5,496 nucleotides of DNA from a bacterium (GTDB taxonomy: Bacteria; UBA9089; CG2-30-40-21; SBAY01), in contig JBFLYA010000249.1 in the NCBI GenBank assembly GCA_040757115.1, positions 1-5,496 of the forward strand, read 5' to 3'. Numbering within the stretch: position 1 is the stretch's first letter; every line of letters starts with the position of its first letter. A program made the position numbers and the translations under genes. This document shows positions 849-5,326 of this stretch, in pieces. The notes below the pieces were generated by a model that saw only the letters and a program-made list of their open reading frames with translations, was not told the origin of the DNA and made no database searches.

Positions 849-872
849 ATTGGGGTCGGAACTATTGGGGTC
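843..872. repeat. Perfect 15-bp tandem duplication carrying the GGGGTC motif
   Basis: GGAACTATTGGGGTC occurs twice in immediate succession (843-857 and 858-872) with no mismatch. The second copy continues into the inverted-repeat element at 867-930. The unit contains ATTGGGGTC, which recurs at 2343-2351 and 2400-2408. A perfect tandem copy suggests recent slippage or a repeated insertion at the same site. Confidence 0.85.
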
Positions 873-930
873 AGACCGTGAATGTTGAATGTAAAAGGGA
901 ACTGCTTTCTACATTCAAGGTCTGACCCTA
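867..930. repeat. GGGGTCAGACC inverted-repeat (MITE-like) element
   Basis: The left arm GGGTCAGACC (868-877) plus TTGAATGTA (885-893) is the exact reverse complement of TACATTCAA (910-918) plus GGTCTGACCC (919-928). The left arm carries a 7-base insert, GTGAATG, a partial copy of the neighbouring TTGAATG. The loop is 894-909. There is no coding capacity, so if it moves it must do so in trans. Similar GGGGTCAGACC ends are, from memory, common near IS200/REP-associated transposases in environmental genomes; I cannot confirm that here. It separates the otsB remnant from the Big_5 remnant. Confidence 0.75.
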
Positions 931-936
931 ATCCTA

Positions 937-1011
937 CTACAAAAACAGGAATATATTTTTATTGGATATGTCTTGTTTAAGTTCATTCCAGTGTTGAAAA
1001 AAATATTTCAT
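937..1011 (-). pseudogene. otsB: 5' remnant of trehalose-6-phosphate phosphatase
   Basis: An ATG at 1011, nine bases after the mscS stop codon, opens a 24-codon frame encoding MKYFFQHWNELK, QDISNKN and IFLFL, followed by TAG. This resembles the start of trehalose-phosphatases (HAD superfamily), in which a short helical N-terminus leads to the IFLFLDYDGTL catalytic motif with the nucleophilic Asp. Here the frame stops exactly before that Asp. After two TAG triplets, GATTA (Asp-Tyr in the expected frame) is followed immediately by the GGGTCAGACC repeat at 928, so everything downstream is lost. Its position behind otsA and mscS supports the assignment, since otsB normally accompanies otsA. It cannot make an active enzyme. 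The match is short, so the call rests on motif plus context. Confidence 0.6.
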
Positions 1012-1020
1012 ACGTTCTCT

Positions 1021-2049
1021 CTATCTGGTCTTCTCCTGTTCATAATTTATTGCCCGAATAGGATAAGGAATAACAATTCCTTCTTGGGCATAGCGCTCAT
1101 GGAGCTTTTTGATGAATTCATGCTTTATTAAATAATTATCCACAAATTCCTTAGCCCGCAGAATTACGGTAAAATTAATGCTGGAATCACCAAAGGTATG
1201 ATATCTGATAAATGGCTCAAAACTGGCTACTCCCCCCAGAACACCTTTCATTACCTCACGCGCTACCTCAATGGTAACCTCTTCCACTTTCTTTAGGTCA
1301 CTGTTATAGTGAACTCCAACCTGAACTAAAACCGCCAACTCTTTATCAGGTAGATAATAATTTGTGATCACGGCCTGGGAGAGTTTGTTATTCGGAATAA
1401 GCACCACATTATTGGGCAACATTCGGACTTTGGTAACGCGCCATCCGATATCCTCTACATAACCCTCCTCGCCTGTATCAATCTTGATAAAATCGCCTAC
1501 CCGAATATTCCTTGATGCGGAGACATAAAATCCCGCGAACAGATTGGAGAGTGTATCCTGCAGGGCCAATGCCACCGTCAGCCCGCCAACGCCCAATGCC
1601 GCCAGGATAGGCGCTATGGATATCCCGAGGCTGTTTAACGCAATGAGAATTCCGATTGTTAAAATAATTATCCTTGATATGTTCTGTGTCAGGCCAACAG
1701 GAAGGGCTACCTCAACCTTTTTTGAATAATGTTTAATGAGTCGGGTAGTTATGTTGACAAGGGCTATAGTTACTGACATAATACCCAGCAGAAGCAGAAT
1801 CTTCCTCGTAACAAAAACCTCTTCATCAGACAGTTTTGAAAACTCAAGCGCCAGATATACGGCGAGCATAAGACACCATATAACACATGGGCATCTTATC
1901 GCGCCAATGATAATATTGTCCACCTCACTCTTGGTCCCCTTGGCCCAGGCCGAAAGGCGCCTGAATATGACCTGCCTGGCTATATATCCTAAGGTCAATG
2001 TAACCACAAACACCGCCAAAGGCATGATGGTCATAAATAAATTTTCCAT
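1021..2049 (-). CDS. MscS-family mechanosensitive ion channel
   Basis: An inner-membrane channel that opens under membrane tension and releases solutes after hypo-osmotic shock. From the start chosen here it has 342 residues; the numbering below counts from the upstream ATG at 2058 (345 residues). Hydrophobic segments lie near 9-30, 56-73, 84-106 and 126-144. The pore helix of the MscS signature spans about 147-179 (APILAALGVGGLTVALALQD, then NLFAGFYV). It is followed by the beta domain with VGDFIKI, GYVEDIGWRVTKVR and IPNNKL at 187-225, and an alpha/beta C-terminal domain ending about 335. Five membrane segments make it longer than minimal MscS (three) and closer to YbdG/YnaI-like forms. Two ATGs compete. 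The one at 2058 directly abuts AAAAGG with no spacing. The one at 2049 has AAGGA about 8 bases upstream and is preferred. It begins just after the otsA remnant's stop, an operon-like arrangement, and appears intact. Confidence 0.93.
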   Translation of the reverse strand: MENLFMTIMPLAVFVVTLTLGYIARQVIFRRLSAWAKGTKSEVDNIIIGAIRCPCVIWCLMLAVYLALEFSKLSDEEVFVTRKILLLLGIMSVTIALVNITTRLIKHYSKKVEVALPVGLTQNISRIIILTIGILIALNSLGISIAPILAALGVGGLTVALALQDTLSNLFAGFYVSASRNIRVGDFIKIDTGEEGYVEDIGWRVTKVRMLPNNVVLIPNNKLSQAVITNYYLPDKELAVLVQVGVHYNSDLKKVEEVTIEVAREVMKGVLGGVASFEPFIRYHTFGDSSINFTVILRAKEFVDNYLIKHEFIKKLHERYAQEGIVIPYPIRAINYEQEKTR

Positions 2050-2062
2050 CCTGAACATCCTT

Positions 2063-2353
2063 TTATGTTTTCTTCAGCGCCGTCAGTTCAGTTATAATAT
2101 TCCCTGCCCAGCGGTAAATATTATTTTCAGCAATAGCCTTCCTCATATTATTCATCCGTTTCTTCTTCTCATTTACCGGCATTTCCAAAGTAAGTTTTAT
2201 CGCCTCAGCAAATTCCTCAATGGTATAAGGGTTGAATTGGATAGCATCGGTTAATTCTCTTGCTGCACCGGTAAATTGGCTTAAGATAAACACACCCAAT
2301 AAATCTTTTTTTGCCTCTACATATTCTTTGGCAACAAGGAGTATTGGGGTCAA
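2063..2353 (-). pseudogene. otsA: 3' remnant of trehalose-6-phosphate synthase (GT20)
   Basis: The frame encodes 96 residues matching the C-terminal end of OtsA: LVAKEYVEA, GVFILSQFTGAARELTDAIQ, FNPYTIEEFAEAI and ENNIYRWAGNII. E. coli OtsA has the equivalent NLVAKEYVAA and GVLVLSQFAGAANELTSAL near its end. The whole enzyme is about 460 residues and makes trehalose-6-phosphate from UDP-glucose and glucose-6-phosphate. About 360 N-terminal residues are gone, including the glucose-6-phosphate site and the DGMN part of the UDP-glucose loop. The break falls inside DGMNLVAKEY: the apparent start (TTG at 2353, then Thr-Pro-Ile-Leu) is encoded by the inserted GAGTATTGGGGTC repeat and is not native. 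The natural C-terminus is retained, ending four bases before the upstream mscS ATG. It is almost certainly inactive. Confidence 0.85.
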
Positions 2354-2408
2354 ACCTTGAAGAATTTAGAATATTATCTACTTTCTTTTTAAAAAGAGTA
2401 TTGGGGTC
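2339..2408. repeat. Pair of GAGTATTGGGGTC direct repeats
   Basis: GAGTATTGGGGTC occurs at 2339-2351 and again at 2396-2408, an exact 13-bp match 57 bp apart in the same orientation. The first copy continues CAAACCTTGAA, a diverged form of the CAGACCTTGAATG sequence seen in the arms of the 867-930 element, so all belong to one repeat family. The second copy continues into GAGATTAAAGTCTC (2407-2420), a short inverted repeat. No right arm was found near either copy. The first copy forms the broken edge of otsA. Confidence 0.75.
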
Positions 2409-2470: not shown

Positions 2471-2546
<76 letters not shown>

Positions 2547-2686: not shown

Positions 2687-2765
2687 TGGTCGGGGCGACT
2701 GGATTTGAACCAGCGACCTCATGGTCCCAAACCATGCGCGCTAAACCAAACTGCGCTACGCCCCG
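2687..2765 (-). tRNA. tRNA-Pro (anticodon UGG)
   Basis: A 79-nt cloverleaf with encoded CCA (2689-2687) and discriminator A. The acceptor arm CGGGGCG/CGCCCCG pairs perfectly. The D-stem is GCGC/GCGC with an 11-base D-loop, slightly long. The anticodon stem CATGG/CCATG carries loop TTTGGGA with anticodon TGG. The T-arm is GCTGG/CCAGT around TTCAAAT. It reads CCN proline codons, mainly CCA and CCG. A possible promoter lies about 110 bp upstream: TTGACA at 2903-2898 and TATTGT at 2880-2875 with a 17-bp spacer, but the -10 is weak and the sequence sits in ACTCAAA repeat debris. Confidence 0.96.
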
Positions 2766-2984
2766 AGTATCAAAAAACAGTAACCGTTCAGGTAATCCTT
2801 TACCGCAGAGACGCAGAGAAACAGAGAGGAAAATATCTTTTTTTGTAACCGTTCAGCCGTGTCCATCAGATGGGACAATATTAACTCAAAACTCAAATGT
2901 CAAAACTCAAAACCTTAAAACTAGTGTCGTGTTGAATAAGTTTTGCACGGGGCATCATCAGGTTTCGTAACCTGCAAACGGATA
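2766..2984. other. Gene-free repeat debris upstream of tRNA-Pro
   Basis: I see no convincing coding sequence on either strand. The stretch holds two exact copies of GTAACCGTTCAG (2780-2791 and 2845-2856). Between them is a CGCAGAGACGCAGAG tract (2804-2818). A run of ACTCAAA-type repeats follows (2883-2913). There is a perfect hairpin with a 6-bp stem and 4-base loop, CAGGTT-TCGT-AACCTG (2959-2974); it has no T-run, so it is not a typical terminator. Confidence 0.7.
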
Positions 2985-3244
2985 ATTGGTAACTGGTAAT
3001 TGGTAATTGGTTAAATAGTTTCGTCCTGAGCTCAGCCGGTAATCCTTCAGTTATCAGTGGTAAAAACTAAATAGAAATTTTCTCTCGCAAAGACGCAAAG
3101 TTCGCAAAGATTATAATTTATTCCTTTGCGTTCTTTGCGCCTTAGCGAGAAATTTAATCTTTATGCCTTTCTCCCACCAATAACTGACCGATTACCTCAG
3201 CCGAACGGTATTTAATTACCAGTTACCAATTACCAGTTACCAAT
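2985..3244. repeat. 260-bp nested palindromic (MITE-like) element
   Basis: Three pairs of inverted arms nest around a 13-base centre. Outer: 2985-3017, made of about 7-bp TTGGTAA units, pairs with 3209-3244; the first 21 bases are identical. Middle: 3038-3060 pairs with 3174-3196 (19 of 23). Inner: 3083-3109, the TCTCGCAAAGACGCAAAG type, pairs with 3123-3149 (23 of 27). CTGAG (3026-3030) also pairs with CTCAG (3196-3200). As single strand it would form one long interrupted hairpin. There is no ORF, so it is non-autonomous if mobile. Its 3244 end interrupts the protease pseudogene immediately after DTGA. No target-site duplication is obvious. Confidence 0.8.
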
Positions 3245-3333
3245 GCTCCCGTATCAACCTTAGCATCAAGCTCTATCGCAGGTTTATCTTTTAAAGGATT
3301 CCTGAGTTTAATTGTGGTCTAGCCTATGCCCAT
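3241..3333 (-). pseudogene. Truncated clan AA (retropepsin-like) aspartic protease
   Basis: From an ATG at 3333 the frame reads MGIG, TAG, then TTIKLRNPLKDKPAIELDAK and VDTGAL. Bacterial single-domain clan AA aspartic proteases begin in this way: a short strand starting MG, an IKLxNP motif, then a VDTGA active-site loop in which Asp is catalytic (the protein acts as a dimer). Two lesions inactivate it. Codon 5 is TAG where the family usually has an aromatic residue, one base from Tyr. The frame is cut directly after DTGA-Leu by the 260-bp palindrome, removing the other about two-thirds of the roughly 100-120-residue protein. I could not find the missing part on the far side of the palindrome. 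Its promoter and ribosome binding site look intact, so inactivation may be fairly recent. Identification is by motif only. Confidence 0.65.
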
Positions 3334-3340
3334 TTTAATA

Positions 3341-3381
3341 CCCCTTTATTATATTTTATCACAATATTTGTTTTTGGTCAA
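3341..3381 (-). promoter_or_regulatory. Sigma-70 promoter and ribosome binding site of the broken protease gene
   Basis: On the minus strand the -35 is TTGACC (3381-3376) and the -10 is TAAAAT (3358-3353), with a 17-bp spacer. Transcription should start near 3346. AAAGGGG (3347-3341) is a good Shine-Dalgarno sequence seven bases before the ATG at 3333. The -35 begins only eight bases after the lptD stop codon, so the gene was an independent unit. With its gene destroyed, this promoter would now transcribe through the palindrome towards tRNA-Pro. Confidence 0.65.
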
Positions 3382-3388
3382 CTAATTT

Positions 3389-5290
3389 TTATTTTAAATT
3401 AAAATTAAGCCAAAATTCTGTATCTTTACTATGTCGGACAGAAAATTTAGCATTCCAACAATGTCCGTCTTTTTCAAGAATCAATCCGCTTTCTTTTATT
3501 CTACGGTCTTTGAGGTCATAATACATCTGGAGTCGAATATGAGTTTTTGGTGAGATGTTAAAACTAACATAATTAGACACATCTAAAATATCCTTATTTT
3601 CTACAGAATGCTCCCTGTAGAAAAATACACTTCCTCCATATTGCCACTTATCCCTTGCTAAATCAAAGTAACTCTCAACTTCCTCTATTTGAGATGATTT
3701 GAAACTATAGGTAGTTTTTAAGGAACCTGCAAGATTATTTTTTAAGGCAAAGTGGACATCAGCAATTAATGGAAATAAACGTATTTTATTGATTTTTAAA
3801 GGTTCATCTTTGTGTTTGCGAAGGTCAAATCCTGCTCCAATTTCTCCCCGTATCTTTCTATTCATCCACAGGTATAATGTCCCGGTTAGTGCATTTGTTT
3901 TTACTCCATAATATTCGTCTGTCTTAAACTTTTTTGTTAAATTATGATTTAGATTCAGTTCTGAGTATCCTCCGATTTTATTTCTTAAATTTAAACCCAG
4001 ATTTAACTCTCCGGTTGCTTTTTCCTCTTCTTTAACTATTCCTGTAAGTCCAAATTTAGGGGAGAAAACTACCCTGTCTGATAAGAAATTTGCCTTTTTT
4101 AAAAAATTAACACCAACAATTCCTTTAAGATAGTGTGTGTTGGTCATTGAACCAGATTGATTTGCTACTTCAACATTTAAATTCGAATACCAATTATTTC
4201 TTTTGATTGATTTGGTCTGCAGAGTCAATTCAGGCAAAAGAGTCGTCTCTTTTTTAAAATCATTAAATTCCCTTGCCCAGCACTCTATTTCCTCACCGAC
4301 TAATCTAATGGTATAATCTGGATAGGTTTTAGTCACGGTGAGGTAGTTTTTTAATTCCCATGTTCCCGCACTACATCTTCCTTCGATAGGATAGTCGCGG
4401 GTGACATTTTTATCGCTTAGAGATTGTAGATAAAGAATTCCGGTTATATCTTTAAATCTTTGAAGGTGTTTTGCATCTATCTCCCATCGTTTTGTATCTT
4501 TAACATCATCGGGCTTTTTCCGCTCGTGAATATAATAGAGATAAGTTTTTCCTTGCGAAATGCTATCTTTCCAATATTTATGTTCTATCCCATTCCCAAA
4601 CCCCTGGTCTTCAAGGAAACTTAAGTGTAATGACCCAATAGACTTTGAAGTAAAGGCATAATCGTAAGTCACTCCTACGGAATTCCCTTTTTCTTCACTT
4701 TTCCCGGTCTTCATAATTATTTTGCCCTTTCTTTCTTTCAAAGACATAGAGTAAAAAGGGAGATAAAATAATGGCACCTTTCCTACTTTAAAAACAATCC
4801 TTTTTGCTATTATTTTTTCCTTTGGGTGAACGATAATTTTACCAGCCTTCAGGCAATAATGAGGTCGAGGTAAATCACAGGTAGTTAGAGAGGCATCCCT
4901 TAAAGTAATAGTTCCGGTTTCAAACAAGGCGTCAGAACCTCTACAATAATAAGGTTTTATAAAAATATATGGTTCTTTCATTTTACCTTGTTTTGTCTTC
5001 AAATTATAGTTTGCCTCGTTACTCTCAAATTTTTCTCCTTTCTCGCCTCTCAAAACTACTTTACCTCTGGCTAAAAGTTCATCTTTGGTCAGATTCAATT
5101 GCATCCAATCTGCCTCTAACCCCATTTCATCAGAATTTAACTTTACGCTACCCCACAGCGTAACTATCTCTTCACTGCCTATCTTTAGATACTCGGCATG
5201 GTCTGCATGCTCAAGGGTTACCGTTCCCTGGGCAGACAAATTTATACCTGGTATTATCAATAAACTAAAAGATAAAAGTAGTCTTTTCAT
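3389..5290 (-). CDS. lptD: LPS-assembly protein LptD (OstA/Imp-like)
   Basis: Outer-membrane beta-barrel that, with lipoprotein LptE, inserts lipopolysaccharide into the outer leaflet. The protein has 633 residues; many LptDs have 700-800. Residues 1-20 form a Sec signal peptide with probable cleavage after LSA. Residues about 22-110 are the OstA beta-jellyroll, with repeating strands such as VTLWGSVKLNSDEMGLEAD and ELLARGKVVLRGE. Residues 135-185 hold the family signature TTCDLPRPHYCLKAGKI followed by GKVPLFYLPFYS. The rest (about 190-633) is alternating beta strands typical of the barrel, ending GHCWNAKFSV and EFWLNFNLK. Cysteines at 116, 138, 146, 306, 337 and 611 could form disulfides, but the E. 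coli pattern is not obvious. The ATG at 5290 has AAGGTGA just upstream. It has no visible lpt or surA neighbour. No hairpin terminator follows the TAA. Confidence 0.9.
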   Translation of the reverse strand: MKRLLLSFSLLIIPGINLSAQGTVTLEHADHAEYLKIGSEEIVTLWGSVKLNSDEMGLEADWMQLNLTKDELLARGKVVLRGEKGEKFESNEANYNLKTKQGKMKEPYIFIKPYYCRGSDALFETGTITLRDASLTTCDLPRPHYCLKAGKIIVHPKEKIIAKRIVFKVGKVPLFYLPFYSMSLKERKGKIIMKTGKSEEKGNSVGVTYDYAFTSKSIGSLHLSFLEDQGFGNGIEHKYWKDSISQGKTYLYYIHERKKPDDVKDTKRWEIDAKHLQRFKDITGILYLQSLSDKNVTRDYPIEGRCSAGTWELKNYLTVTKTYPDYTIRLVGEEIECWAREFNDFKKETTLLPELTLQTKSIKRNNWYSNLNVEVANQSGSMTNTHYLKGIVGVNFLKKANFLSDRVVFSPKFGLTGIVKEEEKATGELNLGLNLRNKIGGYSELNLNHNLTKKFKTDEYYGVKTNALTGTLYLWMNRKIRGEIGAGFDLRKHKDEPLKINKIRLFPLIADVHFALKNNLAGSLKTTYSFKSSQIEEVESYFDLARDKWQYGGSVFFYREHSVENKDILDVSNYVSFNISPKTHIRLQMYYDLKDRRIKESGLILEKDGHCWNAKFSVRHSKDTEFWLNFNLK

Positions 5291-5326
5291 ATCACCTTCA
5301 ACTAACTGTTTTTAAGCCTTTTTAAA

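Follow-up and report, generated by a model that had tools for sequence, protein, structure and literature searches.

A bacterial mechanosensitive channel gene stands whole between the remains of two trehalose genes. The window analysed here, a 5,496-nt stretch of one contig, carries on its minus strand a complete mscS gene between the stumps of otsA and otsB. We judge it likely that this fragment represents the central part of what was once an otsA-mscS-otsB(-DUF5752-treT) operon, which most likely came by horizontal transfer from a lineage related to G014 (the genome of another family in the same phylum as the window genome), that repeat junctions cut otsA and otsB, and that the MscS is most likely an ordinary valve.

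A complete mscS gene between two trehalose gene stumps

Read along the minus strand, the genes come in the order tRNA-Pro, tRNA-Arg, otsA stump, mscS and otsB stump (Table 1), with a gap of 4 bp between the otsA stump and mscS (2059-2062) and of 9 bp between mscS and the otsB stump (1012-1020). An earlier note on this DNA, made from the sequence alone, had described the C-terminus of OtsA, a complete MscS and a 24-codon OtsB start at exactly these spacings. The Pfam matches, the spacing and a shuffle test on the OtsB peptide together mean that this observation was right in all its parts.

Table 1. Features of the minus-strand fragment and its surroundings, with window positions.
Feature	Position	Strand	Basis
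Dispersed hairpin repeat, complete copy, ends the otsB stump	864..936	not assigned	26-nt arms
otsB 5' stump, 24 codons, TAG stop at the repeat edge	937..1011	(-)	shuffle test against related OtsB N-termini
mscS, complete, 345 aa	1021..2058	(-)	three MscS Pfam domains above cut-off
otsA (GT20) 3' stump, ~91 codons and stop	2063..2339	(-)	PF00982 match and 91% DNA identity to G014 otsA
Diverged or partial copies of the hairpin repeat (TATTGGGGTC...), end the otsA stump	2340..2408		direct-repeat families D1 and D5
tRNA-Arg (TCT), directly upstream of the fragment, co-oriented	2471..2546	(-)	ARAGORN
tRNA-Pro (TGG)	2687..2765	(-)	ARAGORN

The open reading frame that holds the otsA stump (2353..2063) starts with a TTG at 2353, but its first five codons derive from a repeat and true homology starts at 2339. 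When its translation was searched against the Pfam GT20 profile (PF00982) it matched at E 6e-23, over profile positions 386-472/473 only, leaving the catalytic domain incomplete; the stump is a pseudogene without nearly all of the enzyme. The otsB stump (1011..937) encodes the peptide MKYFFQHWNELKQDISNKNIFLFL and then a stop, one residue short of the DxDGT motif, so that the HAD phosphatase domain with this motif is not present. It is likewise a pseudogene.

The 24-residue otsB peptide found no match in a Pfam search, for which it is too short. We scored it without gaps against the 24 residues that precede DxDGTL in OtsB proteins, using 2000 shuffles. With 13 related OtsB (12 from trehalose-mscS operons and one from G014), the peptide agrees at 7-12 positions, and in none of the 13 comparisons did any of the 2000 shuffles equal its score; with four more distant OtsB the score was not significant (165-1249 of 2000 shuffles reached it), and the likeness is therefore specific.

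The channel itself is well recognised. The MscS (2058..1021) reached 63.1, 30.4 and 31.9 bits against the Pfam models for the MS_channel beta domain, TM2/3 and the C-terminal domain (cut-offs 20.2, 23.1 and 21, respectively), matched YnaI/MscS sequences in the PDB at 5e-21 and shares 60-68% identity with the copies found in Omnitrophota operons. Its structure model was weak (pTM 0.40) and the fold matches had high rmsd, so that the family assignment rests on sequence; by that assignment, the protein is most likely an ordinary tension-gated valve. A promoter scan upstream of mscS gave nothing convincing, and read-through from the co-oriented upstream tRNA genes is one conceivable way in which the gene might be transcribed.

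Intact operons in other bacteria

The MscS protein was searched against one genome per species (84,980 species), and the best 80 loci were kept; a GT20 gene lies near mscS in 32 of them. The three genes are directly adjacent on the same strand, in the order otsA-mscS-otsB, in L069, L071, L077, L078 and L100 fully, and in L083 and L084 in part, where contig ends interrupt. Among the matches listed this order is thus found at seven loci, mostly Omnitrophota, the group to which most genomes with trehalose-mscS loci belong among these matches. Gaps in the intact operons are 9-14 bp and 3-6 bp, and DUF5752 and treT usually follow where the contig reaches far enough. The original operon that the earlier note had deduced from the tight spacing therefore exists uncut in other bacteria, and the window genome kept (or received) the valve alone.

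Other arrangements occur. The order mscS-otsA-otsB-DUF5752-treT is the commoner one among the matches listed (for example L062, L066, L067, L085, L088 and L107), and two Bacteroidota loci (L114 and L116) read otsA-mscS-DUF5752-treT-otsB. The otsA-mscS-otsB gene order appears to be undescribed in the literature searched. Two loci hold a second osmotic gene pair within the same operon as mscS: CBS-domain and cation/proton-antiporter-like genes (names from the proteins read) follow otsA-mscS up to the contig end in L070 (5140-6013) and lie between mscS and otsB in L074 (6019-8004). DUF5752 consistently accompanies treT and otsB in these operons (L077 7848-8519, L173 4361-5020, L174 9172-9849) and also occurs in the trehalose locus of the window genome; as a testable guess, it may take part in trehalose metabolism, and a literature search for DUF5752 with trehalose found nothing relevant.

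A synthase fused to a predicted sensor

In most trehalose-mscS operons OtsA is ~745 aa long and places an N-terminal region ahead of its GT20 domain (L062, L066, L067, L069, L077, L078, L100 and others); L082, L102, L108 and L114 have a shorter OtsA without it. In this region two hydrophobic segments surround a Cache-like domain of ~130 residues (TM - Cache fold - TM). Residues ~5-245 match the WalK sensor kinase in NCBIfam at ~1e-11, below that family's whole-protein cut-off, and when the N-terminal 270 residues were modelled with AlphaFold2 (mean pLDDT 78, pTM 0.54), WalK ranked among the best matches of the model in the PDB. With its TM-Cache-TM arrangement, the region is, as modelled, a WalK-like transmembrane Cache sensor. 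The literature search on sensor-fused OtsA found nothing relevant, and the fusion appears to be undescribed in the literature searched.

Full-length OtsA of the parent operons match GT20 at 1e-118 or better with the GT20 motifs conserved, but score 417-430 bits against the TIGR02400 equivalog, whose cut-off is 565; we therefore infer from these motifs and from the neighbouring OtsB that they are probably T6P synthases. The OtsB of G014 scores 175.7 bits against the TIGR00685 T6PP cut-off of 68.

We tentatively raise the possibility, somewhat short of an even bet, that the parent operon is an undescribed osmotic module which has spread horizontally. One protein, a trehalose-phosphate synthase fused directly to a transmembrane Cache sensor, would both sense and make the solute, and MscS would be expressed together with it as its dedicated valve. 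The components of such a module would be separable, the enzymes occurring without the valve in G014 and the valve without the enzymes in the window genome.

Origin of the fragment

G014 has a full-length otsA, and the otsA stump matches its 3' end with 91% DNA identity, which points to horizontal transfer; the 633-aa neighbour ORF of the window shows only 64% protein identity when genera within the family of the window genome are compared. From this small sample, the cutting of the operon seems recent relative to divergence. At C27 of G014 (L166 and L173), otsA is followed by 3.65 kb of other genes and then by otsB, DUF5752 and treT, with no mscS; no mscS remnant was found in the otsA-otsB gap, and G014 may never have had mscS between the two genes. 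The genes in this gap are BrnT, CopG-like, HicB-like and YafQ-like toxin-antitoxin, transglutaminase-like, DUF5678 and aspartyl-protease-like genes. G014 thus has the parent operon without the valve, and the window genome has the valve without the enzymes of that operon.

The window genome (G000) has exactly one MscS-domain (PF00924) gene, the mscS of the window. None was found in the whole genomes of a same-genus relative (G001), two same-family relatives (G002 and G003) and G014, and all 14 of 14 control genomes have one, which places the window mscS in a bacterial family otherwise showing no MscS-domain channel. The MscS tree identified no donor and put the window copy outside the main clade of otsA-mscS-otsB copies; in-phylum homologues (G012, G016 and G017) had no trehalose neighbours in the stretches compared. 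At C45 the window genome carries, beside treT and DUF5752, an intact fused OtsA-OtsB of a type unlike the stump's operon. This answers the question whether the genome has another otsA/otsB, and the loss of both trehalose genes proposed earlier is accordingly not a loss of trehalose synthesis by the genome.

Altogether, the identity of the stump to G014, the different locus at C45 and a sole MscS gene with none in the three family relatives suggest that an operon was acquired by horizontal transfer and that its channel alone survived here, or alone arrived. On these sequence comparisons we favour horizontal arrival of the operon, or a piece of it, beside the tRNA pair. That the genome has no other MscS-domain gene agrees with the idea that the channel was kept; the operon may have been dismantled at this site or may have arrived as an already cut piece.

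The ends of the fragment bear on how it was cut. The arms of the hairpin repeat at 864..936 are 88% complementary, and its pattern has 61 matches genome-wide, against 0 when the pattern was reversed as a control. This complete copy (~864-936) marks the end of the otsB stump, and the homology of the otsA stump to G014 otsA begins exactly at 2339, where the junction 2339/2340 adjoins the TATTGGGGTC repeat. Because both stumps end at dispersed-repeat copies, we see two repeat-associated junctions where a loss from the outside inwards had been suggested. An OtsB-like LTPIV obtained by reading through the hairpin was dismissed, as these bases are the repeat's own and recur in other copies. Like repetitive extragenic palindromes/REPINs (PMC3116915, PMC2817692), the hairpin repeat is a short, dispersed, imperfect palindrome in tens of copies; its sequence was not found in the literature searched.

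The window as a whole looks like a mosaic of fragments with repeats at the joins. Beyond the hairpin, 690-839 on the minus strand holds another gene fragment, with part of a Big_5 domain (bacterial Ig-like; sub-threshold match, E 0.0015). Dense dispersed repeats fill 2780-3249, including a 32-nt inverted pair with 206 nt between, and ~320 bp of this stretch occur in many copies in the same-genus genome. The 633-aa ORF (3389-5290, minus strand) has no Pfam match and 98% protein identity to the same-genus genome, and by eye resembles an LPS-assembly (LptD-like) outer-membrane protein.

The same repeats and the same intact, sole mscS would also fit dismantling in place, in which a vertically inherited full operon was trimmed by repeat insertions and outer deletions and the channel was kept by selection. 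We consider this unlikely. Neither the window-type mscS nor the stump-type otsA occurs in the same-genus and same-family genomes, whose own trehalose locus is of the different, fused type, and vertical descent sits poorly with a stump so close in DNA to the gene of another family. In G002, moreover, what comes after the tRNA-Pro/tRNA-Arg pair is an ilvC-like gene (named from the protein read) and not the fragment. Flank searches in G001-G003 gave matches swamped by repeats, and contigs there end before the site.

A piece of a co-occurring organism's contig could also have been joined in assembly via the short repeats, the stumps then being contig edges. The contig comes from a short-read style assembly in 462 contigs, both junctions are repeats with tens of copies, relatives with the same repeat family exist and the otsA stump resembles G014. 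Such an artefact is nonetheless improbable: the missing 5' part of otsA and 3' part of otsB were not found anywhere else in the assembly, the window has no run of N, and the same-genus genome matches 3244-5300 at 98.5% identity, which assigns the contig as a whole to the window genome. Chance resemblance, with a peptide lacking any Pfam match and a GT20 tail unrelated to any operon, has a negligible probability given the strength of the GT20 match and a peptide score that no shuffle out of 2000 reached with any of the 13 related OtsB. It is refuted by the intact operons, in which relatives carry all three genes in this order at similar spacing.

Proposed history and function

Under the preferred reading, an otsA-mscS-otsB(-DUF5752-treT) operon would have been acquired horizontally from a donor lineage related to G014. 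Two dispersed-repeat junctions would have cut otsA, leaving ~91 codons, and otsB, leaving 24, and for this reason mscS alone would be whole. The intact parent operon would combine synthesis and release: trehalose-6-phosphate would be made by an OtsA that is anchored in the membrane and has its Cache sensor outside the cytoplasm, OtsB would dephosphorylate this product, and MscS would vent solute as membrane tension rises. In the window genome, the retained MscS would open on hypo-osmotic shock, gated by tension, and release solutes including trehalose, which would then be the product of the separate DUF5752-treT-otsAB locus. We infer the direction of transfer, whether cutting came before or after arrival, expression and all of the physiology.

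Comparison with known systems

The window MscS shares the domain order and sequence of its family with the MscS/YnaI channels. It differs from E. coli MscS, which has three N-terminal hydrophobic stretches, in having about five (by hydropathy only), and from these channels in that its gene adjoins trehalose gene stumps. In E. coli, OtsA and OtsB carry out two-step trehalose synthesis from the neighbouring genes of otsBA, an operon without mscS whose OtsA is soluble and without a sensor domain. The parent operon shares the two OtsA/OtsB steps and differs by mscS and by the sensor-fused OtsA.

The pairing of compatible-solute synthesis with a channel, proposed in the earlier note, has a studied experimental precedent in the msc-gt-tpsp operon of Thermoproteus tenax, where one transcript carries an MscS-type channel gene, the genes for trehalose synthesis and one for a GT4 glycosyltransferase, and where the model is that trehalose is made under stress and released via the channel (PMC3634074). 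Together with the intact bacterial operons, this analogy supports a functional link between trehalose and MscS. The T. tenax operon differs in being archaeal, with a fused TPS-TPP, the channel first, a synthase without fused sensor and, in the available text of that paper, no DUF5752 reported (PMC3634074); in the window, the channel alone is whole. As the arrangement was called unique to Thermoproteus and Pyrobaculum in that source (PMC3634074), the bacterial operons widen the picture: a link that a single archaeal operon had suggested, between making a compatible solute and a mechanosensitive valve, is met again in bacteria, in other gene orders and with a sensor-fused synthase. This opens to testing a path from osmotic signal to solute synthesis within one protein. 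The window, for its part, clearly illustrates how such a module can be cut at dispersed repeats and leave one part surviving alone.
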